Shown piece by piece: positions 4,665 through 20,384 of a stretch of DNA of 20,384 nt. The DNA comes from a virus, in IMG/VR virus record IMGVR_UViG_3300032304_002309, positions 1 to 20,384 of that record, one strand, 5' to 3'. The position numbers and the translations under genes are program-made. The notes beneath the pieces were generated by a model. The model was given only the letters and a program-made list of their open reading frames with translations, was not told the DNA's origin and did not search any database. How positions within the stretch are numbered: position 1 is the stretch's first letter; every line of letters starts with the position of its first letter.

Positions 4665-5042
4665 ATGGCAGAATTTGATTTCAGAGATTTTTATATTGGA
4701 TATGAAGGTCATCCACGCTTCACAATTAATAAAATCATCACAGATGATATAATTAGAGTGATTGTCCAAAAATACGAAATGATACTCTTTACAAATAAAG
4801 GCGAGTTATTTGGAGATCCAGATTTCGGATGTGATTTAACTAAACTTCTTTTTGAAACTAAAATATCAGCCGAAGCCGTAAAATCTACAATTATCGGACA
4901 AATAAACACTTATATAAGTGAACTACAAGGAACCAATTACACACTAGAGGTAACATTTCAACAAGACCCAGAGAATTACCAAGACATCATGATAGTTGAT
5001 TTCACACTACTGGATTACGAAGTTAAAGCTATCGTTTCTTAG
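4665..5042 (+). CDS. 25: gp25-like baseplate wedge protein
   Basis: 125 residues, close to T4 gp25 (132). It has the GPW/gp25 family core: an N-terminal alpha/beta part, then FTNKGELFGDPDFGCDLTKLLFE, where the family has a 'GER...PdfGc.L...lFe' signature. A helix VKSTIIGQINTYIS follows, then the C-terminal strands EVTFQQDPE and IMIVDFTL. In T4 gp25 is a conserved core wedge subunit that binds gp6 and the sheath initiator region and is needed for sheath assembly. The stop overlaps the remnant stop of the giant gene on the opposite strand by 4 bases (TTAG at 5039-5042), which looks like the original convergent gene arrangement. An incomplete second copy lies at 5175-5429. Confidence 0.88.
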   Translation: MAEFDFRDFYIGYEGHPRFTINKIITDDIIRVIVQKYEMILFTNKGELFGDPDFGCDLTKLLFETKISAEAVKSTIIGQINTYISELQGTNYTLEVTFQQDPENYQDIMIVDFTLLDYEVKAIVS

Positions 5043-5170
5043 TTTGTATAAACTATTGGTATTACAGCATTTATATACTGCTTGGTAGTAAGATTTGTAT
5101 AAGATTCTAATTCTCTCAAATCCAATATACCTTTAATTTCATAGTTCTTTTTATCACGATAGTTAGAACC
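5039..5170 (-). pseudogene. Orphan 3' end of the giant baseplate gene
   Basis: The minus strand here encodes the last 40-odd residues of a protein homologous to the C-terminus of the giant gene at 7287-13103. It ends ESYTNLTTKQYINAVIPIVY plus TN and a stop, where the intact gene has ESYTNLTSKQYTNSVIGIVY plus TGQ. The upstream 74 bp (5097-5170) are identical to 7348-7421. The homology breaks abruptly at 5170/5171, where sequence matching gene 25 begins. It has no start and is not expected to be expressed. It marks where the giant gene ended before the insertion. Confidence 0.85.
5097..5170. repeat. 74-bp direct repeat, copy 1
   Basis: Base-for-base identical to 7348-7421 and in the same orientation. 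The two copies are 2251 bp apart and bracket the second gene 25 fragment, the nuclease gene and the last 61 bp of the giant gene. Confidence 0.93.
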
Positions 5171-5174
5171 TTTA

Positions 5175-5429
5175 TTTACAAATAAAGGAGAGTTATTTGG
5201 AGATCCAAATTTTGGAGCTGATCTAACTAAACTACTCTTTGAAACAAAAATATCTGCTCAAGCTGTAAAAGCAATTATAGTCTCACAAATTAATGCCTAT
5301 ATCACAGAACTACAAAATACAAGTTATACTTTAGGAGTAACCTTCCAACAAGATCCTGAAAATTATCAAGATGTTATGTTAGTCGATTTTACACTATCTG
5401 ATTATGAAATAAAAGCCATTATTTCTTAA
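5175..5429 (+). pseudogene. 25: Second, diverged 3' two-thirds of gene 25
   Basis: These 255 nt align without gaps to 4788-5042 at an offset of 387. They encode 84 residues starting FTNKGELFGDPNFGADLTKL and ending KAIIS, with about 67 of 84 residues identical to the intact gp25. Many differences are silent or conservative and there is no internal stop. So this copy diverged under selection, most likely in a related phage, and was not duplicated recently in place. It lacks roughly the first 41 codons and any start signal, so it should be non-functional here. Its last 11 bases overlap the end of the convergent nuclease gene. Confidence 0.88.
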
Positions 5430-7224
5430 CTATTAATTCAAATTTCAATTTACCACAATCATATATCTTCAATAAATCCAATTTGGATTCTGATATATTT
5501 GTCCTTGACTTTCTAAATCTAGATTTATGTAATCTTTTTCTATTTATAATATATTTGTAATCGGGACTTCCATCTGAAATTTTAATAAAATTCAAAGATT
5601 CATATAACTTACCATCAGACCAATCTTTATCAGCATAAGAAACAATTCTCAAAGGATTATAATTTACTATGAAATAATTTAAAAGTTTAGATGCACCACC
5701 AACAACAGAAGTATTTAAAATACTACAAAATCTCGATAGATTCCATTCATTACTCGGCATTAATTTACGACCCTCAAAGTGATCAAATGTCATTAGTGAC
5801 ACTAAATTATCATCATAAAACAATCCGATTTTTAAAACACTACTAACCTTTGATTGGATATGATTATCTTCCAAAAATCTATTACACAAATTAGAATCAT
5901 TTAAAATTCTAACCTCACACTTTCTTGCAAATATCTTTGTTTTTGCATTTCCTATTAAATAGGATATCATGGACTTAACTATATTTTGTTTAAGATCCCA
6001 ATCATCTTCCCATATATGCACTATACGTATGCCATTATTTTTAAAATAAATAGTTTTATCAGAATGATAATTTTTATTTTTAAATCTATCAGAATGCCAA
6101 TATAATCCATTAAATTCAAAACCCAACCTCAATTCTGGTAGGTATATATCAATCTCTTGTCTATTATCTCTATAAGATTGTATAATTTCACTATCATAGA
6201 TACTTTTAATAAATTCAAATAATAACTGCTCTTTGATAGACTGACTATTACCTATTTTGTGACAATTAGTACATAGCGGTAGGTGTGAATTTTCCCTCCA
6301 AAAGAAAGCATCAGAATTTATCTCAAAGTTATGATCTTTTCCACAATCACAATTAAATAAAGATATCCCGTTTTCTATGTATCTAATGAAATTAGGATGA
6401 TTTCCAATTATTGTTGTTTTGTAAAAATGATCACTTGATGTATAATTAAAGGCCCCATATTTCTCTAAATTGGTTTGTTTAATCTTTTGTTTAATAAAAT
6501 CTGACTGCAGAACATATTCAACACCATATCTTTCTAAATTTGTCTGTTTAATCCTATCTTTAACTTCTTTTAATTGTGATGTAAATTCAACACCATATTT
6601 TTCTAAATTGGTTTGTTTAGATTTTTCTTTATATTCATCAGTTTTAGCATAATTATCAACGCCATATCTTTCTATGGTAGTATTCTTTAATTTTTGACTT
6701 ATCTGTTTATTCTGCAAAACATATTCTACCCCATATTTTTCTAAATTTGTCTGTCTAATTCTATCTTTAAATTCATCAGTCTTAGTATATGATGAAGCTC
6801 CATATTTTTCTAAATTGGTCTGTTTTGATTTTTCTTTATACTCATTTGTTTTAGTATAATTATCAAAACCATATTTTTCCAAATTAGTCTTAACAATACT
6901 ATCCCTAACCTCTTTTAACTGAAGAGTATGCTCTACACCATATTTAATGATATTATTCTCATTTCTTTTTTTACTCATACAAATTCTATTGTTACAACAA
7001 CATTTATTTTGTATTTTTAATTGTTTAATATATTTGTAGTATTGTTTAGTAAAAACAATTCCACAATAATCACAAGATACAGAAACCTCTAAATGTGAAT
7101 TTTTAGATAAATTTTCTATTTTAATTGTAAGTGTATCCCCTATCTTAATAGATTTTGAGATCCTCCTATAAAAAATTAAGTTTTTTTTGTCTATTTTAAT
7201 ATCTATTGACTCTGTTAATAACAT
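5419..7224 (-). CDS. Free-standing homing-endonuclease-like protein with eight 23-residue repeats and a C-terminal GNAT-like domain
   Basis: 601 residues. Residues 51-82 hold a Cys-rich zinc-finger-like module (CDYC, then CCC and C). Residues 92-275 are eight 23-residue repeats with core LEKYGVxxYxKTDEYKEKxK, the pattern seen in DNA-binding regions of phage homing endonucleases. Residues 292-321 form another Cys pair module. Residues about 330-410 are a Vsr/PD-(D/E)XK-type nuclease: SIKEQLLFEFI, EIDIYLPELRLGFEFNGLYWHSD, a lysine-rich stretch, then GIRIVHIWEDDW. Residues about 434-560 (KIGLFYDDNLVSLMTFD, LSRFCSILNTSVVGGASKLL, IVSYADKDWSDGKLYESLNF) look like a GNAT/Mom-type acyltransferase fold. 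The protein would cut a neighbouring allele lacking the gene and spread by recombination. It sits between gene 25 and the giant gene and is linked to a duplicated junction. The ATG at 7222-7224 lies 3 nt from a TAATATATAG box. Confidence 0.82.
   Translation of the reverse strand: MLLTESIDIKIDKKNLIFYRRISKSIKIGDTLTIKIENLSKNSHLEVSVSCDYCGIVFTKQYYKYIKQLKIQNKCCCNNRICMSKKRNENNIIKYGVEHTLQLKEVRDSIVKTNLEKYGFDNYTKTNEYKEKSKQTNLEKYGASSYTKTDEFKDRIRQTNLEKYGVEYVLQNKQISQKLKNTTIERYGVDNYAKTDEYKEKSKQTNLEKYGVEFTSQLKEVKDRIKQTNLERYGVEYVLQSDFIKQKIKQTNLEKYGAFNYTSSDHFYKTTIIGNHPNFIRYIENGISLFNCDCGKDHNFEINSDAFFWRENSHLPLCTNCHKIGNSQSIKEQLLFEFIKSIYDSEIIQSYRDNRQEIDIYLPELRLGFEFNGLYWHSDRFKNKNYHSDKTIYFKNNGIRIVHIWEDDWDLKQNIVKSMISYLIGNAKTKIFARKCEVRILNDSNLCNRFLEDNHIQSKVSSVLKIGLFYDDNLVSLMTFDHFEGRKLMPSNEWNLSRFCSILNTSVVGGASKLLNYFIVNYNPLRIVSYADKDWSDGKLYESLNFIKISDGSPDYKYIINRKRLHKSRFRKSRTNISESKLDLLKIYDCGKLKFELIVKK
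6400..6951 (-). repeat. Eight in-frame 69-bp coding repeats (23 residues each)
   Basis: Residues 92-275 of the nuclease divide exactly into eight units of 23 residues with no length variation. Units start at residues 92, 115, 138, 161, 184, 207, 230 and 253. The most constant positions are LEKYG at the start and K-x-TN at the end of each unit. The nucleotide copies have diverged, so this is an old protein repeat, not a recent slippage product. Confidence 0.9.
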
Positions 7225-7244
7225 ATACTATATATTATAGTATA
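7224..7244 (-). promoter_or_regulatory. Promoter-like box inside a small hairpin at the first nuclease gene start
   Basis: TAATATATAG on the minus strand (7228-7237) is embedded in an inverted repeat, TATACTATA-ATA-TATAGTATA. The last arm base is the A of the start ATG. The box lies 3 nt from the start. Confidence 0.45.
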
Positions 7245-7286
7245 GCTCCCTATTTTGTTATTAAAGTTAGATTATTTTAATAAAAA

Positions 7287-10200
7287 CTATTGACCCGTAT
7301 AAACAATACCAATCACAGAATTAGTATATTGTTTTGAAGTTAGATTAGTATAAGATTCTAATTCTCTCAAATCCAATATACCTTTAATTTCATAGTTCTT
7401 TTTATCACGATAGTTAGAACCGTAGCCGTTTTCAGAAGAAACCTCAATAACTAAATAAGGATCTATATTCGAGTCAATAGTGAAATTAAAAGGATAAAGA
7501 TTATCAATCCTTCTTCTTTCAGTAATATGTTGAATTGGAGCCAAATCTACTTCTTTCCATTCAGTAATATTTAACCAATTACTACCAGCTGTTCCACTAT
7601 CAATAAAAGGTGTTACAACTGAAGCCGTAGAAGATGTTCCAAATCCATAACTTGTAAAGATATAAAATTCTCTCTGATATTTAACTATGTCAGAAACATT
7701 GTAAACATTTCCCTTAGTCCACTCTGATATGTTCTCATATTTTCTCGGATTGTTAGTTTTATTGTTATCAATAAATGATTCATACAACTTATCATAATAA
7801 ACCACCCTATCACCAATCATATAATCTTTGAAAGCATACCATTCACGGTAAATCTGATAACTTCTTATATCAATTGTATAATAATCTGGTAACGTAGATT
7901 GTGTTATTCCAGGATACCTTGAAGGAACATCTGTTGGAAAGTAAAAATCCAATACACAATTATAAACAGTGGATCCATTATTCACTGGCATCAAATATAA
8001 CTCGTTCATTTTGAACGAAACTGGAGTAAAGTTTTCATAATGTTTAATAATATTAACATCTCTTACTATGTGAGTGATTGTTGATACACCCTGAAAGTCA
8101 GCTCTTCCAGTAATATCCAAAATCTTATGAGTGATTGGAATAATATTCTTCTGCAACCAATATTTCAAACCTTGAAGTTTCTTCTGAACCTCTTCTAATG
8201 TATAATTCAAAACATTATTACCCTCTCTATCTGTAATTCTATAAGTTAAATTGAATAGGTTAGTATCTGCATAATTTGGATTAGGAAAAGTATGTTTGAT
8301 AAAGTCATTTTCCTTCCAACCCTCAACAGTATTATCAAAAATATCCGGTATTTCAACTTTGAATAATTTAAAATAGTTTGGTGAATCGATATTGATATTT
8401 CTATAATATTCATTTAACTCTAAATCATTATATCCAAAGTAATTAATTGCATTAATGATAGATTTATAACTACCGATATATGGATATATGAGATTCTTCA
8501 TCATCAACATCTCTTTTCTCTTACGGTTTAAATAGACCCAATCGATTCCCTCTTCTTTAATATCATATTCTTTAAATATATAAACATCATCAGATGAAAC
8601 CAACTTCCCCACATTACCCAATTCTGTCTTGAATCGAATATCTTCAATTTCAGTTTGCCCATAAACATTAAATCTTCCAATCTCTTTATCCCAAACTTTA
8701 AACCTAACTGAAAGGTAAGTTGTTTGAGTGGTCTTAGGATAATCTGAAATAATAGTAGATTCAGTATCAAATTGATCAATTTGTTTGAAGAAATCTACAA
8801 CAATTGATTTAAAGTTTATTGCTCGTATTTTAACTAAATATCCATTATTCTTAGAAATGTATTGTTTTTTAGTATTTGTTTCATCCTTAATGAATAAAGC
8901 TAATTGTTGACCCACCTTTAAACCTCTGATATCACCATTTGAATAATTTAAAAAGTTACTTACCGAATTAACATCTAATGAAATGACACCATATCTATCA
9001 TTTGTTGTAGTTATAGTTTGTAAAGTAATTATATCAGATTGAGAAGTAGAAGTATTAATAGTAAAATCAACTGACTCTTTCTTATAGAGTTGTAATATAC
9101 TTCTTAAACCACCTTCAATCTGTGCATTGAAACCAATAAAACATTCAATTGGTTCAGGAACAATTGATAAGTCATCATTATCATCTAAGTAACTTAACTC
9201 ATTCTCAATAATTGGGAAAATAGTTTGTTGATATTCCGGTAAACTAACTCTGCCTATGCTTCTATTAGCCGATCTATTTAAATGAATAGTAGTCAAAGGT
9301 TTTGGACCAGTATAAGCCAATACTCCAGTGGTCGGCAATAAATCACCACTAAAATCATACATAAAAAATTCTGGAACGTTATCCGAAAACCATTTCCAAT
9401 ATAATGAAACTTTAACATCACCGTTGAAGTTTTCTCTTGGTCTTCTGATGAAATCTCTTGTATGTAACCATAAGTAATCTCTGTTGATGAAATTAGGATC
9501 TAAACTACCATAAAAGTTGTCAGTAACCGAGGAAGATGTTGAAGAAATTGGAACAAATGTAAATAATAAAGTCGGAACCACTTCAACAATAGTATTAGTA
9601 ATTGGTTGAATAGCCCAAACTGAATTTCTATCCAGATTCGAAATAATTTGAGTAGTAGGATCTGAAAGTATAACAGAATTAGATATTGCTCCAGTAGTAG
9701 CATCCATGGTCCAAATTCCATTAAAGGTAGGATCTTGATTAGAAATGTAAATATCACCATCATAATTATTATAAGCTTGAAATCCATAAAGATTCACAGG
9801 AGATTGAGTATAAACAGAATTATCCGTAACAGTGTCCCAGAGACTAAACTCAGGAGTGTCAGTTGATAAATGAAGGCCTGATAAAACTGGATTAAATGTT
9901 AAATAGTTTAAAGTTCCAGCAGTTGGTATAAGTGATGTAACAACACCAGCATCTATTTTATAAAGATTAGAAGAACTCCAAATATAAACACCTTCTGTTA
10001 CCGGATCATATATGATAGGATCATCTGTAAGACCAGAAATAGTATAAATTATAAATGTTAGTGAACCACCATCAACTCTCAAAACTGTTGAAGCATCTCG
10101 ACAAGTAACATACATATCACCTTCAAAATCATTGAAAGCCAAGTTCCAACTTCCATTATATGGTATAGACGAAATAGACGTAACTAAGACTCCTATATTG

Positions 10201-13103
10201 AAAATTTCAACTGATTGATCGGTTGTAACATAAACAAATCCGGTATTTCTATCAAAATCTAAAGCATAAGCATTTTGTGTAATAGTAATTTGACTAATAA
10301 TCGCATTAGCAAATGGGTCAATTTGCCAAAGTATATTCTGAGAAAGTGCCCAAATAAAATTATCAACCGAATTATAAATAATTTGAATACTATTCACATT
10401 TGACGGCAAATTAATAGTAGTAATTTGAGCACCAGTATCAGAATCATAAACACCAATATTATCACCAAATACAAAAATTGAACCTGATGGCTGAACATAT
10501 ATCAAATCAACCATGTTTGTTATTCCAGTAAATGTATTTACTGTATAAGTAGTATTTGAAATATTTACTAAATTGAAAGCTGAACTAAATTGTTGCAAAT
10601 CGAACATACCACCACTAGATGTAGGACTAGGAGGACAACCTGATTGTGAAAACCCAAGTGAAAATGCAACAACAGTATAAGGAGAAACAGAACAAACTCC
10701 ACCAGTGAGACCCCAAAAAGGTCCCTCATAACTTAGATTAATAATTCCTGGATCCAAGAATAAGACATTAAATTCCACATCCTGAAGTGGATAAACCGTA
10801 CCATTAATTCCAGTAACCATTCCAGTTGAAAATCCAGCAGTCTCCAATGATTGACTTGTTGAATAAGTAGCCAATAAAATCTCATTTGAAGTTAAAAGAG
10901 TTCCATGGTTTCCTAACATTTTATTCATAACTCTCCAATTAAAATCTCCAGGCAATACAGATTGACCAGCTCTAACCTCTATATCACATCTCTGGTTTTG
11001 ATTTTTCACATGAAATTTGATACTAGAAGCTAAATTATCAACATAGATACCAAAATTATCTAATATATCAGAATACTCATCTACCCAATTTTGTAAAGTA
11101 GTAGAAAGAGTAGATGTAAAAGTTGGAGATTGTGGTAAGGTGTGAGCAATACCATAAGACCTATTATTAACTCGTATATCAATCCAATTTCCTAAACTTG
11201 AAGTCATACCCTGAACAGACGGTTCATAGAAAAATAAATGTGACTTTTCAATATGAAAGTCAGCAGTCGTTCCAACCTTCACTTCAAATTGTAAAGGCAC
11301 ATTTGGATATTCAGTCCTCAAATTAATCGAATTATAGTAAGGTGAAACTATATCAATAGTTTGTAAAGTAGGAATAATACCTAAAGAAAGTAATACTACA
11401 CTATGAAGTGTCATCCAATTTCTCAAAGTCTTATCAATAGTCCTTTCTAAATCAATTGTTCCTGAAGTATAAACCCATCTTATTTCAGTTTGATAGACTT
11501 CTTTATTAATTATTATTATAAAACCATATTCATCTAAATCAGTGAAAACTATGTTGTAAGAGAAGTTTTGACTGAAATCGTAATTAAACTCTCTCTTTAA
11601 ATTTTCTTCTACTTCAATAGCTCTTTCAACTACCCACTTTTGGCTTCCTATTTGAAGAGAAGATGTAGGAGAGAATGATGAAGTCACTCCATAATAGTTT
11701 ACAACTGCATACTTTGAAGGATAAACCAAATCAGCACGGACTGTTCCACTCTCATAGTATAAATCTATATTCAAAATAGATAAATCAGAAGCAAATTTTT
11801 CAACAGCAGAGGCTAAAGTCACAGTAGATGACATTGTAAATGACTGACTGAAATATAACTTATCAGTTGTTAAATACAAATCAGCCGTAATTGATTCATA
11901 AAGTGGAGATTGATCCAATGGAAGATATGTCGGGATACCCCAATAAGTTAAATCATCTGGTGTGATTAAAGAAGTTGCTGACCAAGTATGTGTTTGAAGA
12001 CATTGTTTAATTGTATTATTCCATAAAACTTGTGTACCAGCTTCATAAGTAATTAAGTTAGCATTACCAACAAATGTAGGTATGCTAGACACATTAAAAA
12101 ACTGAGAACCATTAAGTGATGGTGGCACTGAAACAACTTTAAATTGTACACCAGGTTTGAAAATTGTTGGTATCGGAAGAACGTTTAAATCCAAGACATT
12201 TACATAGTTATATGTTGTTGAAGTAATCGGATCTGTTATAACCAATGGTGTAGATGAATCATAAAATATCATAGAACCACTGTAAACTTCAGGCAAGTCT
12301 GTTTTCATTAGGACTTCAATCCACAAATCGTGATTTGTAGGTAAGGTTGAAGTAAAATATTCATAATGGTCAATATCATAAATATTTTCATTTTTTATTG
12401 TGACAACAGTTGCATCAATATACTTATTAGTCTTATCATATAAGTCATTCTTCAAGGAATTGACAATATTTAACTTTCTATTTTTATATAATCTATTGTA
12501 GAAATCCTTTTCATTCCAAATAGATAGATTCTCAGCTAAAGTAGATGAACTAACATAATTATAAATACCAATAATATCAACCGATGAAATAGTTTTCCCT
12601 ACATAATTAGTCAATGTTTGCCAAGAATATGAAGTATTGAAAGTTCGGTTATCAACCATACTTATAATCAAAACAGCATCCTTCTTATTTCCAACAACCA
12701 CAAAAGTTCTATCAGTATTAGTAAATTCAAAAATGGATTGGTCAAATCTCAATAGAGCACCGAGTGGAAATTTCTTGTGAAAATCACTACCATAAATCCA
12801 TTTTGAATAAAAATTTGATTCAAAATTAACTGGCTCAATTAAATCAATTTGTTGATTTGTAAAATCAGAGTTATAGAAATGAAATCCAAACTCATTGAAT
12901 AACTGCCATCTTAAAAGAGTTAAATCGGACTGATTTTCATATTCAAATGCCTTAATCTTCTCAAACATATAAATAGCTTGAGTTTTAAAAGTATCATTAG
13001 AATTTTCATGAAATAGGATATCACCTTCATATCTCTCAAGTGTTTCATTATAATTAAAATTCAGAGCATTTCCTTCTTTATCATAGAATAGTAAGTTATT
13101 CAT
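7287..13103 (-). CDS. Giant baseplate / host-binding protein with beta-propeller and carbohydrate-binding-like modules
   Basis: 1938 residues, the largest gene here, convergent with gene 25. I cannot assign a T4 gene number with certainty; a gp7-like wedge protein is the closest guess. Visible parts in order: residues 1-250, an alpha/beta N-terminus; 351-389, a short module (QVLWNNTIKQCLQTHTW ... DLTYWG) like CBM5/12 chitin-binding domains; about 400-740, repeated beta-rich segments; 860-1177, seven or eight 38-42-residue beta units with a YVTN/NHL-propeller look (GFVYVTTDQSVEIFN, GDMYVTCRDASTVLRVD, GDIYISNQ); about 1505-1570, a segment around RKRKEMLMMKNLIYPYIGSY that recalls tail protein I/wedge proteins; 1752-1795 and 1796-1852, two more CBM5/12-like modules. 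The likely role is baseplate scaffold plus receptor contact. GAAGGA lies 7 nt before the ATG (13101-13103), a rare clear Shine-Dalgarno here. It has no signal peptide, as expected for a virion protein. Confidence 0.75.
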   Translation of the reverse strand: MNNLLFYDKEGNALNFNYNETLERYEGDILFHENSNDTFKTQAIYMFEKIKAFEYENQSDLTLLRWQLFNEFGFHFYNSDFTNQQIDLIEPVNFESNFYSKWIYGSDFHKKFPLGALLRFDQSIFEFTNTDRTFVVVGNKKDAVLIISMVDNRTFNTSYSWQTLTNYVGKTISSVDIIGIYNYVSSSTLAENLSIWNEKDFYNRLYKNRKLNIVNSLKNDLYDKTNKYIDATVVTIKNENIYDIDHYEYFTSTLPTNHDLWIEVLMKTDLPEVYSGSMIFYDSSTPLVITDPITSTTYNYVNVLDLNVLPIPTIFKPGVQFKVVSVPPSLNGSQFFNVSSIPTFVGNANLITYEAGTQVLWNNTIKQCLQTHTWSATSLITPDDLTYWGIPTYLPLDQSPLYESITADLYLTTDKLYFSQSFTMSSTVTLASAVEKFASDLSILNIDLYYESGTVRADLVYPSKYAVVNYYGVTSSFSPTSSLQIGSQKWVVERAIEVEENLKREFNYDFSQNFSYNIVFTDLDEYGFIIIINKEVYQTEIRWVYTSGTIDLERTIDKTLRNWMTLHSVVLLSLGIIPTLQTIDIVSPYYNSINLRTEYPNVPLQFEVKVGTTADFHIEKSHLFFYEPSVQGMTSSLGNWIDIRVNNRSYGIAHTLPQSPTFTSTLSTTLQNWVDEYSDILDNFGIYVDNLASSIKFHVKNQNQRCDIEVRAGQSVLPGDFNWRVMNKMLGNHGTLLTSNEILLATYSTSQSLETAGFSTGMVTGINGTVYPLQDVEFNVLFLDPGIINLSYEGPFWGLTGGVCSVSPYTVVAFSLGFSQSGCPPSPTSSGGMFDLQQFSSAFNLVNISNTTYTVNTFTGITNMVDLIYVQPSGSIFVFGDNIGVYDSDTGAQITTINLPSNVNSIQIIYNSVDNFIWALSQNILWQIDPFANAIISQITITQNAYALDFDRNTGFVYVTTDQSVEIFNIGVLVTSISSIPYNGSWNLAFNDFEGDMYVTCRDASTVLRVDGGSLTFIIYTISGLTDDPIIYDPVTEGVYIWSSSNLYKIDAGVVTSLIPTAGTLNYLTFNPVLSGLHLSTDTPEFSLWDTVTDNSVYTQSPVNLYGFQAYNNYDGDIYISNQDPTFNGIWTMDATTGAISNSVILSDPTTQIISNLDRNSVWAIQPITNTIVEVVPTLLFTFVPISSTSSSVTDNFYGSLDPNFINRDYLWLHTRDFIRRPRENFNGDVKVSLYWKWFSDNVPEFFMYDFSGDLLPTTGVLAYTGPKPLTTIHLNRSANRSIGRVSLPEYQQTIFPIIENELSYLDDNDDLSIVPEPIECFIGFNAQIEGGLRSILQLYKKESVDFTINTSTSQSDIITLQTITTTNDRYGVISLDVNSVSNFLNYSNGDIRGLKVGQQLALFIKDETNTKKQYISKNNGYLVKIRAINFKSIVVDFFKQIDQFDTESTIISDYPKTTQTTYLSVRFKVWDKEIGRFNVYGQTEIEDIRFKTELGNVGKLVSSDDVYIFKEYDIKEEGIDWVYLNRKRKEMLMMKNLIYPYIGSYKSIINAINYFGYNDLELNEYYRNINIDSPNYFKLFKVEIPDIFDNTVEGWKENDFIKHTFPNPNYADTNLFNLTYRITDREGNNVLNYTLEEVQKKLQGLKYWLQKNIIPITHKILDITGRADFQGVSTITHIVRDVNIIKHYENFTPVSFKMNELYLMPVNNGSTVYNCVLDFYFPTDVPSRYPGITQSTLPDYYTIDIRSYQIYREWYAFKDYMIGDRVVYYDKLYESFIDNNKTNNPRKYENISEWTKGNVYNVSDIVKYQREFYIFTSYGFGTSSTASVVTPFIDSGTAGSNWLNITEWKEVDLAPIQHITERRRIDNLYPFNFTIDSNIDPYLVIEVSSENGYGSNYRDKKNYEIKGILDLRELESYTNLTSKQYTNSVIGIVYTGQ
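7348..7421. repeat. 74-bp direct repeat, copy 2 (inside the giant gene's 3' end)
   Basis: Identical to 5097-5170. Homology continues downstream (7287-7347) only as a diverged match, and stops at 7421/7422 because copy 1 is cut there. Confidence 0.93.
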
Positions 13104-17091: not shown

Positions 17092-18783
17092 TTAAACCAA
17101 AACCAATTCAAATTTAGACCTACCACAATCATATATCTTTGGATATCCCAAACAACTCTCAGACATACCAATCTTTGACCTCCTAAACCCCGATTTGTGA
17201 AATCTTTTATTATCAATAATATACTTATAATCAGGATACCCACTTGAAACTTTACTAAAACCCAACATAAAATACAAATTTCCATTACTCCAACTTCTAT
17301 CAGAGTATGAAATTATTCTTTTTGGATGATAATTTTTTACAAAAAATGAAATAATTTTAGAAGCACCACCAACAACAGAAATACCAAGAGAAGAGCAAAA
17401 TCTACTCAAATTCCATTCATCTTCTTTCATCTTTTTCCTACCCTCAAATTGGTCAAACACCATTAAACTAACTATCTCATCATTATATAACAATCCTATT
17501 TTTACTTTTGATGTAACAAAACCCTGAACATGATTTCTATCCAAAAATTCTTTCACTAATTTACTATCTTCCATCAACATGACTTTACACTTTCGAGCAG
17601 GAATCCTCTCAGAAACTCCTATAAGATTTATAATTTGACTCTTAATTATATCCTTTTTGAAAATCCAATCATCTTCCCAAATATGGACTATTCGAACACC
17701 ACGATCTAAGAAATAATTGGTTTTATTAAGATGATAATTCTTATCTTTAAATTTATTTGAATGCCAATATAAACCATTAAACTCAAATCCTATTTTTATA
17801 TCTGGTAAATAGATATCAATCTCCAACCCATCTCTATATGAATCAATAACTAAACCGCTATAAATATTCCTTATCCACTCAGAAATCTCCTTTTCTTTAA
17901 ATGACTTTGAATCACTGACCGGATTACAAACAGTACAAATTGGAGTACCATTCTCAACCCTATCATTAAACGTGGTTTTATGGATACTAAAATCATGATC
18001 TTTATATGGACACCTAATAGTAACAATTGAACCAGCTCTACATACTAAGTTTAAATTCATATCGGACAACTTCGAAATCCAATAATCCTCATGTCTAATA
18101 GAATTCATTTTATTATTCAGAATGCTCATTCTATTTGACAAGGAATCTCTAACCTCTAATCTTTGTGAATTAAACTCAACACCAAATTTACTAAACATTG
18201 TTTTTGATTTTCTTTCTTTAACCGACTCAACAAATGATACATTCTCATATCCATATTTTTCCAAATTGGATTTTTTAATTTTAGACTTAATAAAATCATT
18301 ACATAACGGAGTCACATATCCATATCTTTTCAAATTTGTATCTCCAACCTTTTCTTTCTTCTCATCTGAATTAGATGCGCATTTTGGAGAACAGAATTTA
18401 TGAAATCCCACAGAGGTGTTTATTAAATTAGTATATCTAAATTTACAATAATTACATAAAGGTGGAGATTTTAAATCACAATAATATAAGTAAACCTTTG
18501 TTTTGAAATCTAAAACTATGTCAAACTTTTGATTGATGAAATCATCAACTAAAGGCATATTTAGTTTAAAATTTCGACTCTTACAGTAATTAAAAAAATC
18601 TTCTTTTGAGGAGTCAATTATACTCAGTGATAATAACTCATTTTTTTTCTCCAATATGCACTTTCTTTTAGAGTTAAGAGAATCTTTCCTACAATCTTTA
18701 CAAGTTTTTCTAAAACTCATTCTATCCTTCCTAAACTCAAAATAATCTGAGTCCTTTTCTATTAAACACTTATTACAAATCAT
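17092..18783 (-). CDS. Second homing-endonuclease-like protein, with three 23-residue repeats and GNAT-like C-terminus
   Basis: 563 residues from ATG 18781-18783; an in-frame TTG seven codons upstream (18804) is less likely because the ATG begins the zinc-finger MICNKCLIEKDSDYFEF. Cys pairs appear near residues 3/6, 29/32, 107-113 and 131-135. Residues about 151-219 hold three 23-residue repeats (LKRYGY..., LEKYGYENVS..., FSKFGVEFNS...). The nuclease region follows: SKSFKEKEISEWI, EIDIYLPDIKIGFEFNGLYW, GVRIVHIWEDDW. Then the GNAT-like part: KIGLLYNDEIVSLMVFD, LSRFCSSLGISVVGGASKII, IISYSDRSWSNGNLYFMLGF. From the nuclease domain on it is clearly homologous to the 5419-7224 gene by eye, with most motif residues identical. 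It lies co-directionally between the tail tube gene and gene 47. Confidence 0.8.
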   Translation of the reverse strand: MICNKCLIEKDSDYFEFRKDRMSFRKTCKDCRKDSLNSKRKCILEKKNELLSLSIIDSSKEDFFNYCKSRNFKLNMPLVDDFINQKFDIVLDFKTKVYLYYCDLKSPPLCNYCKFRYTNLINTSVGFHKFCSPKCASNSDEKKEKVGDTNLKRYGYVTPLCNDFIKSKIKKSNLEKYGYENVSFVESVKERKSKTMFSKFGVEFNSQRLEVRDSLSNRMSILNNKMNSIRHEDYWISKLSDMNLNLVCRAGSIVTIRCPYKDHDFSIHKTTFNDRVENGTPICTVCNPVSDSKSFKEKEISEWIRNIYSGLVIDSYRDGLEIDIYLPDIKIGFEFNGLYWHSNKFKDKNYHLNKTNYFLDRGVRIVHIWEDDWIFKKDIIKSQIINLIGVSERIPARKCKVMLMEDSKLVKEFLDRNHVQGFVTSKVKIGLLYNDEIVSLMVFDQFEGRKKMKEDEWNLSRFCSSLGISVVGGASKIISFFVKNYHPKRIISYSDRSWSNGNLYFMLGFSKVSSGYPDYKYIIDNKRFHKSGFRRSKIGMSESCLGYPKIYDCGRSKFELVLV

Positions 18784-18799
18784 ATTGTATATATCAATA
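18783..18799 (-). promoter_or_regulatory. Promoter-like box in a small hairpin at the second nuclease gene start
   Basis: Minus-strand arms TATTG and CAATA flank ATATATA; the box TGATATATAC (18787-18796) ends 3 nt before the ATG. A weak hairpin, but with the same layout as at the other two nuclease genes. Confidence 0.3.
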
Positions 18800-18843
18800 A
18801 TCAAATATGAAGTTTGGTAAAATCTATCCCATTTTTATATTTA

Positions 18844-19593: not shown

Positions 19594-19650
19594 AAAATTG
19601 CACTTTTCATATTTAGTATGTAATATATACTAAATATGAGATGCAATTTT
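19594..19650 (+). promoter_or_regulatory. Long hairpin covering the third nuclease start, with a promoter-like box in its loop
   Basis: Left arm 19594-19619 and right arm 19627-19650 are inverted repeats. They match perfectly for AAAATTGCA at the base and CATATTTAGTAT at the top, with a small internal bulge (CTTTT against AGA). The 7-nt loop is GTAATAT. The box TAATATATAC (19621-19630) starts in the loop, and the start ATG (19636-19638) lies within the right arm. A transcript from upstream would hide the start in a stem. One begun from the box would lack the left arm. Confidence 0.7.
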
Positions 19651-20384
19651 AGATATTGTAATAAAGAGATAAACTATGGCAGACCAGATAGGAAATTTTG
19701 CAATAAAAATTGTAAAAGTAAGGAGAATAAAATACTATCCGAGATAAAAATACTGAATATGAAATCCAAAAAGACTAAAGAATTTATCGAAAAGTCGATC
19801 AAAATACATAATAATAAATTCATATATGATTTGGTAGTTTACACTAACTGCCGATCAAAAGTAAAAATAATATGTCCTACTCATGGTATTTTTGAACAAA
19901 AAGCTAGTAATCATCTACACAACGGATATGGATGTGACTCTTGTGCAAGAGATGAACACAAACTAACTCAACTATCAACAGAGAGAATAAATAACCTTAA
20001 AAGAATACATAATAACAAATATGAATATAAAGATTTATCAGTTATAAAAGGATTTATAAATATCATTTGTCCAAATCACGGAATCTTCACTCAATATCTA
20101 TACTACCATGAATACGGACACGGATGTGCTGAGTGTAATTCATCATCAAGAGGTGAAGATTATATTAAAAATTATCTAGAAAATAATAATATTTGTTACA
20201 TTAGAAATCACATTTTTGATGGATGTAAGAATAAGAAGGGTTTAAGGTTCGACTTCTATCTCCAAGAGTTGGATACTATAATAGAATATGATGGTGAACA
20301 TCACTTCAAAGAGAATAAATATTTTGGCATTGGTAATTTAGAATATGTTAAGAAAAACGATGAAATTAAAAATAGATTTTGTCA
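19636..20384 (+). CDS. Third endonuclease-like gene: zinc-binding repeats plus PD-(D/E)XK nuclease (3' end beyond window)
   Basis: 249 residues are visible and the frame is open at the edge. It begins with a four-cysteine finger, MRCNFRYC ... KFCNKNC (C3, C8, C22, C26). Two repeats of a DUF723-like zinc-ribbon follow: KVKIICPTHGIFEQ with GYGCDSC (about 55-103), and FINIICPNHGIFTQ with GHGCAEC (about 123-167). The nuclease core is at 174-245: GEDYIKNYL (E174), LRFDFYLQ (D206), IIEYDGEHHF (E217), then the family's KNDEIKNRFC. This layout is common in phage homing-type endonucleases and differs from the two larger nucleases of this window. It has no GNAT-like domain in the visible part. It is divergent from the tail tube gene. 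Expression is probably controlled by the hairpin at its start. Confidence 0.8.
   Translation, partial: MRCNFRYCNKEINYGRPDRKFCNKNCKSKENKILSEIKILNMKSKKTKEFIEKSIKIHNNKFIYDLVVYTNCRSKVKIICPTHGIFEQKASNHLHNGYGCDSCARDEHKLTQLSTERINNLKRIHNNKYEYKDLSVIKGFINIICPNHGIFTQYLYYHEYGHGCAECNSSSRGEDYIKNYLENNNICYIRNHIFDGCKNKKGLRFDFYLQELDTIIEYDGEHHFKENKYFGIGNLEYVKKNDEIKNRFC

Follow-up and report, generated by a model that had tools for sequence, protein, structure and literature searches.

A mobile nuclease gene and its foreign flanks in the 3′ end of a giant phage gene: a probable one-sided acquisition

An L004-like phage appears to have taken up a block from a related phage, within the 3′ end of its giant gene, by one-sided repair or copying, a reading to which we assign a probability of roughly two in three. 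The DNA analysed (hereafter the window) is a metagenomic contig of 20,384 bp, IMG/VR virus record IMGVR_UViG_3300032304_002309. In the simplest description, the net insertion is 5171-7421 (2,251 bp), 131 bp before the stop of the giant gene, because its removal restores an in-frame, ungapped giant-gene end. With 5170 joined to 7422, this end was continuous, in frame and gap-free against the empty-site relatives L004-L006. Carried on the insert were the 3′ part of a gene 25 from another phage, the gene for a mobile nuclease and a new end for the giant gene (Table 1). When a mobile nuclease is acquired in nature, homologous recombination on both sides usually leaves no visible seam. In the window the two joints can still be read, as can the fragment of the passenger gene and the stranded end, and empty and occupied relatives are known, so that the steps of one event can be reconstructed. 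Read this way, the event shows mobile nucleases moving flanking gene pieces between phages.

The protein of the resident gene 25 (25A) was 98% identical to that of L004-L006 and 92% identical to that of L007; its match to Pfam GPW_gp25 (E = 2.3e-4) was below the cut-off. A first-pass annotation of this DNA had described the junction correctly in three respects. The intact gene 25 ends 4 bases inside an orphan giant-gene end (TTAG, 5039-5042), which is a stop-to-open frame encoding ...GSNYRDKKNYEIKGILDLRELESYTNLTTKQYINAVIPIVYTN before its stop. At 5170/5171 this orphan end switches to a diverged second 3′ part of gene 25 (25B), which aligned with 25A ungapped over 5175-5429 (195 of 255 nt and 67 of 84 residues identical). 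The two 74-bp copies are identical between diverged flanks: 15 sites differ in the 51 bp to their left and none within the repeats. The chance of 74 identical bases beside ~25% divergence is ~1e-9. In the ORF listing, 25B had no start codon yielding an ORF of at least 40 aa.

Table 1. Features of the gene 25/giant-gene junction, in window positions
Feature	Position	Strand	Details or basis
Gene 25A, intact resident baseplate wedge gene	4665-5042	+	125 aa; phrog_261, E = 2e-11
Displaced original giant-gene 3′ end	5039-5170	-	43 codons plus stop, lacking the 5′ part
Left copy of 74-bp perfect direct repeat	5097-5170		Identical to 7348-7421
Perfect inverted repeat CCTTTATTT-AC-AAATAAAGG	5169-5188		Illegitimate joint 5170/5171 at its foot
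Gene 25B, startless 3′ fragment of putatively foreign gene 25	5171-5429	+	Tree, codon-position differences, dS/dN
Mobile nuclease gene	5419-7224	-	phrog_3339, DUF7487
Mom-like GNAT domain (predicted)	5428-5952	-	Residues ~425-599; AlphaFold2 model, Foldseek, hhalign
Nuclease domain (predicted)	5953-6252	-	Residues ~325-424; family profile matches 3r3p, E = 0.0012
Nuclease 5′ spacer, putatively donor-derived	7225-7286		62 bp; first 38 bp 89% identical to L015
Replacement (donor-type) giant-gene 3′ terminus	7287-7347	-	Differs from displaced end at 15/51, from L004 at 12/51
Right copy of 74-bp repeat	7348-7421		Putative donor/recipient switch at or within the repeat
Intact giant gene, recipient body	7287-13103	-	1938 aa; ungapped and ~92% nt identical to L004 over first 978 nt beyond the repeat

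The earlier proposal that the right side was exchanged by homology and the left side joined illegitimately is supported. Read from the window's own sequence, the left joint showed at most 1 bp of microhomology, because the recipient side reads AGTTAGAACC/GTAGCC (slash at the joint) and does not contain the TTT/ACAAATAAAG similarity. That similarity had been placed near the left joint; it belongs to the comparison of 25A with 25B. The inverted repeat at this joint is one of only five such places within the window.

Relatives with a 4-bp gene overlap in place of the nuclease had been predicted, and we found them. L004, L005 and L006 came from three metagenomes and were identical at the locus; they and L007 lacked the nuclease and kept the overlap (TTAG or TTAA). 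The companion prediction, a relative with the order gene 25 - nuclease - giant gene, held for the arrangement and failed for the close donor: L015 and L016 carry a nuclease (75% aa identity) between the same gene pair, but 25B was only 74.5% identical to L015 (65/255 differences) and ~78% identical to L007. Our searches found no donor closer than ~78% to 25B and no nuclease relative closer than L015/L016. In the space separating gene 25 from the nuclease, L015 retains the ancestral gene 25/giant overlap and ~33 bp of a displaced giant-gene end (TAAGGATAAACTATTCC...); its nuclease frame runs into both. This displaced end scored 36 in a targeted test, against a maximum of 29 in 2000 shuffles. 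By these alignments, both known occupied alleles (the window and L015) keep an old giant-gene end on the gene 25 side.

In the gene 25 tree, 25A grouped with L004 (100/98) and then L007 (95/92), and 25B fell outside {window A, L004, L007}. The first-pass annotation had named a grouping of the two copies as the result that would speak against transfer; the tree did not contain it, and the test that forced them together was borderline (dlnL 24, p-AU 0.053). Together with the empty and occupied relatives, the position of 25B supports the transfer from a related phage that had been proposed. 25B appears to have diverged under strong constraint as part of a working gene elsewhere, because it differed from 25A by dS ~1.7 and dN ~0.12, with 15/8/36 differences by codon position. 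dS to L015 was 0.8 for the nuclease and 1.06 for 25B, consistent with arrival as one block, and the similarity of these values points to an unsampled phage, a distant relative of L015, as the probable source. Over the 51 bp beyond the overlap, the displaced giant end differed from L004 at 4 sites and the new end at 12, which suggests that the displaced end is L004-like and its replacement is not.

Over short tracts, both the window and L004 have a mosaic makeup. Compared with L004, 25B had 2 differences in its first 42 nt, against 61 in the rest, a ratio that was the lowest of 231 pairs; this mosaic test is suggestive of a recipient-like start of 25B, though not clean. Within 25A, a 112-bp tract (4787-4898) had 16 differences to L004 between sides identical to it, and it begins almost exactly at the start of the duplicated gene 25 part (4784-4788). 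The 74-bp repeat could itself be donor-derived: 5125-5170 differed from L004 at 9 of 46 positions, and 14% of giant-body windows were as divergent. The repeat was not assignable to donor or recipient, because searches for the 74-bp variant and for the 25B/nuclease joint (the latter sought in bacterial genomes) gave no match.

The mechanism that we favor would proceed as follows. The block would comprise the last two thirds of the donor gene 25, the mobile nuclease gene and the last 61 bp or more of the donor giant gene. The nuclease may have made the starting break. With the donor genome as template, a recipient giant-gene end would have undergone repair or further copying through the giant-gene end, then the nuclease, then gene 25′. 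Synthesis would have stopped at the foot of the small hairpin formed by the inverted repeat, and non-homologous joining at 5170 would have linked the stopped end to a second end or copy of the recipient. The sequence itself shows that the right side is homologous, with the switch at or inside the 74 bp, and that the old giant-gene end is stranded beside gene 25 and a new one supplied. In this mechanism 74 bp of recipient sequence would be present twice, as the left joint falls 74 bp past the point of return. The Mom-like domain could let the new carrier survive with the whole original target region present.

Sequence comparison supports this mechanism: empty (L004-L006, L007) and occupied (L015/L016) alleles exist at one locus, joining 5170 to 7422 restores the giant-gene frame, the displaced end resembles L004 where the new end does not, and 25B lies outside the A/L004/L007 clade. 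The similar dS of nuclease and 25B to L015, the displaced giant end of L015 and the precedent of the T4 td intron (PMC2988022) also speak for it. Several points count against it. A single break at 5170/7422 alone does not yield 74 identical bases on both sides; a second copy of the recipient, a switch of template or a donor that matches the recipient throughout the 74 bp is required. The possible donor origin of the repeat and the short-tract mosaicism also weigh against it. No donor above ~78% was found, the joint 5170/5171 was found in no other IMG/VR contig scanned, and all 75-mers of the inferred empty allele persist, contrary to ordinary homing.

The origin of the identical 74 bp could also be sought in the recipient itself. 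A tandem duplication of 383-387 bp (gene 25 3′ part plus giant end, with its joint at 5170/5171) might have come first, and the donor nuclease with its flanks might then have entered the second copy by ordinary homing, with homology on both sides, left conversion reaching the duplication joint and right conversion stopping before the 74 bp. We consider this order of events unlikely, although several points speak for it: it explains the non-homologous joint and the identical repeat without two recipient ends, it fits the recipient-like first 42 nt of 25B, as measured by the low ratio of the winB-L004 pair, and tandem segmental amplification near the phage homing endonuclease SegB is known (PMC13096335). 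However, 25B differs from 25A at 3 of these 42 positions while the 74 bp has no difference, so that the start of 25B is not cleanly recipient. The left conversion would also have to reach almost exactly the joint, and a nuclease-free duplicated allele was not found among the relatives. The divergence of 5125-5170 from L004, greater than that of its surroundings, would instead suit a rearranged block, or a circular or tandem form containing the joint, that the donor lineage already carried and that recombined into the recipient by homology at either end; excision of 5171-7421 as a circle yields the same joint. This seems improbable to us: L015/L016, the only occupied relatives, do not have the arrangement, and the single crossover of a circle would leave differences within the repeats unless they are corrected.

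A chimeric assembly of two strains, one with the empty allele and one with the nuclease, deserves mention because the window is a metagenomic contig, a short assembly word can be smaller than 74 bp, the joint is absent from any second contig, and two full versions of the region lie side by side. We judge it very improbable, since the two sides of 5170/5171 have no sequence in common that would let an assembler cross over; L015 also has an independent displaced giant end at the same site. A recent in-place duplication of the gene 25/giant junction, with no foreign DNA, was rejected as scarcely credible. The direct repeats themselves are all that speaks for it, and against them stand the position of 25B outside the A/L004/L007 clade (95/92; p-AU 0.053 and dlnL 24 for an A + B clade), dS of ~1.7 against dN of 0.12, and the relative of the nuclease at the same locus in L015. 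Our preferred reading remains the one-sided insertion of a block from a related phage.

We observed DUF7487 repeats, an EDxHD/PD-(D/E)XK-like nuclease and a C-terminal Mom-like GNAT domain in the predicted nuclease protein. Matches to phrog_3339 'homing endonuclease' (E = 1.7e-111) and to DUF7487 (PF24308, E = 3.1e-54) place it by profile in the DUF7487/phrog_3339 phage nuclease family. The structure matched by the family profile, 3r3p (listed as 'Mobile intron protein'), we take to be I-Bth0305I. E332, D359, E370, H377, H403, E406 and D407 were invariant in 20 members, and we predict an EDxHD (I-Bth0305I-like) nuclease. The GNAT fold was modelled by AlphaFold2 with a pLDDT of 86, and the best PDB match of the model in Foldseek was phage Mu Mom (8bv8, E = 8.7e-7). 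A profile of 14 GNAT domains matched a profile of 9 Mom proteins in hhalign (probability 97.2, E = 4.2e-11), and the Mom-invariant H48, R101, S114, D139 and Y149 match residues invariant in the nuclease family; the Pfam Mom model alone matched weakly (E = 0.0095). These data suggest that the C-terminal domain belongs to the Mom DNA-modification family by fold and invariant residues. A PDB sequence search with the single nuclease protein gave no match, so the nuclease and Mom assignments rest on the family profile and the fold.

A near-perfect palindrome, ATATACTATATATTATAGTATA (7224-7246), lies just upstream of the nuclease start and is partly common to L015; it is a possible regulatory site. 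The window holds a second nuclease of the same family (17092-18804, minus strand; 44% aa identity in alignment), also with a Mom-like domain, and a third, different endonuclease-like gene (19636-20382, plus strand; phrog_559, DUF723) that is truncated where the contig ends.

In classical homing the target is lost or split. The first-pass annotation had described the event as homing, and part of that description stands: occupied (L015/L016) and empty (L004-L007) alleles at one locus, together with co-transferred donor flanks (25B and 7287-7347, neither recipient-like), fit homing. The fate of the target does not: the window still contains all subsequences of the inferred empty allele up to 75 bp long, so that no target was destroyed or replaced in the carrier, given a target near the insertion and a repeat made of recipient DNA. 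The nuclease would still find a target of ordinary length near the site; the exceptions would be a target in another place, an inactive enzyme or a protected genome. Inactivity is not an obvious answer, because the nuclease is under purifying selection (dN/dS ~0.17 vs L015). The question is then how a genome survives a nuclease with the original target region intact. The Mom-like domain is a candidate answer, as it could protect its own genome by modification.

One-sided events are known from the T4 td intron, where homology on one side only leads to illegitimate second joints (PMC2988022). As in the window, one side is homologous and one illegitimate, and the phage gains a nuclease-bearing segment. 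The td events come from a laboratory assay with truncated flanks and have junctions with microhomology, whereas the gene in the window is natural and free-standing, microhomology at its joint is visible over no more than 1 bp, and the recipient gained a 74-bp duplication without losing any sequence. The free-standing seg and mob genes of T4 resemble the window in that a nuclease lies between conserved genes, is patchy among relatives and brings donor flanks. To our knowledge, the known cases of this type convert flanks by homology on both sides, whereas the window keeps the old flank beside the new one.

In yeast WHO elements, the nuclease has on one side the target gene, which ends in a donor-type 3′ part, and on the other side that gene's former 3′ end, now displaced (PMC7282813). 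Both occupied alleles, the window and L015, have this architecture, with a displaced former 3′ end beside the nuclease. In other respects the window differs: the replacement end does not remove the cleavage site, given a target near the insertion and a repeat of recipient origin; the nuclease is of another family and fold than the HO-like intein plus zinc-finger nuclease; the target is a phage structural gene; there is no tandem cluster; and across 31 nuclease loci gene-end duplication is not general for the family. REase-Mom fusions of jumbo phages, predicted to protect phage DNA while cutting other DNA (PMC7824862), likewise join a restriction-type endonuclease domain to a Mom (GNAT) domain. 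There the fusion is predicted to be a weapon, and in the window it forms a mobile gene for which both occupied and empty alleles are known. In phage T6, segmental amplification driven by SegB (PMC13096335) also ties a phage homing nuclease to duplication of neighbouring DNA, but as tandem amplification within one phage, whereas the duplicated part in the window appears to come from a diverged phage.

A broader proposal, which we regard as speculative and rather unlikely as a whole, is that giant phages carry self-protecting endonuclease-Mom mobile genes that enter the 3′ end of a structural gene, give it a new end and strand the old one in a WHO-like manner. If true, insertion need not destroy the target, because the enzyme can mark its own genome, and a self-marking nuclease would be free to spread through half-matched joints.

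A general duplication of flanks was sought across 31 nuclease loci and not found. Clear cases were the window (strong) and the L045 group (a 33-bp terminator), with L015 added by the targeted test; gene-end or flank duplication is not general for this nuclease family. In L045 (10335-12175, reverse strand), the same 28-33 bp transcription terminator (AAAGCTCTTGTTATTCAAGAGCTTTTTT) stands on either side of a related nuclease and seems to be a duplicate of the upstream gene's terminator. The terminator-flanked nuclease also occurs in L048, L049, L051, L056, L070, L081 and L097. The gene 25/giant junction varies in other ways among relatives. The giant protein of L017-L020 has an extra C-terminal part of ~300 residues at this junction (L017, 6385-7444), and L104-L109 have a similar gap of ~1 kb between gene 25 and the conserved giant C-terminus. 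L013/L014 show a local rearrangement of this pair: the giant gene precedes gene 25, and both have the same orientation.
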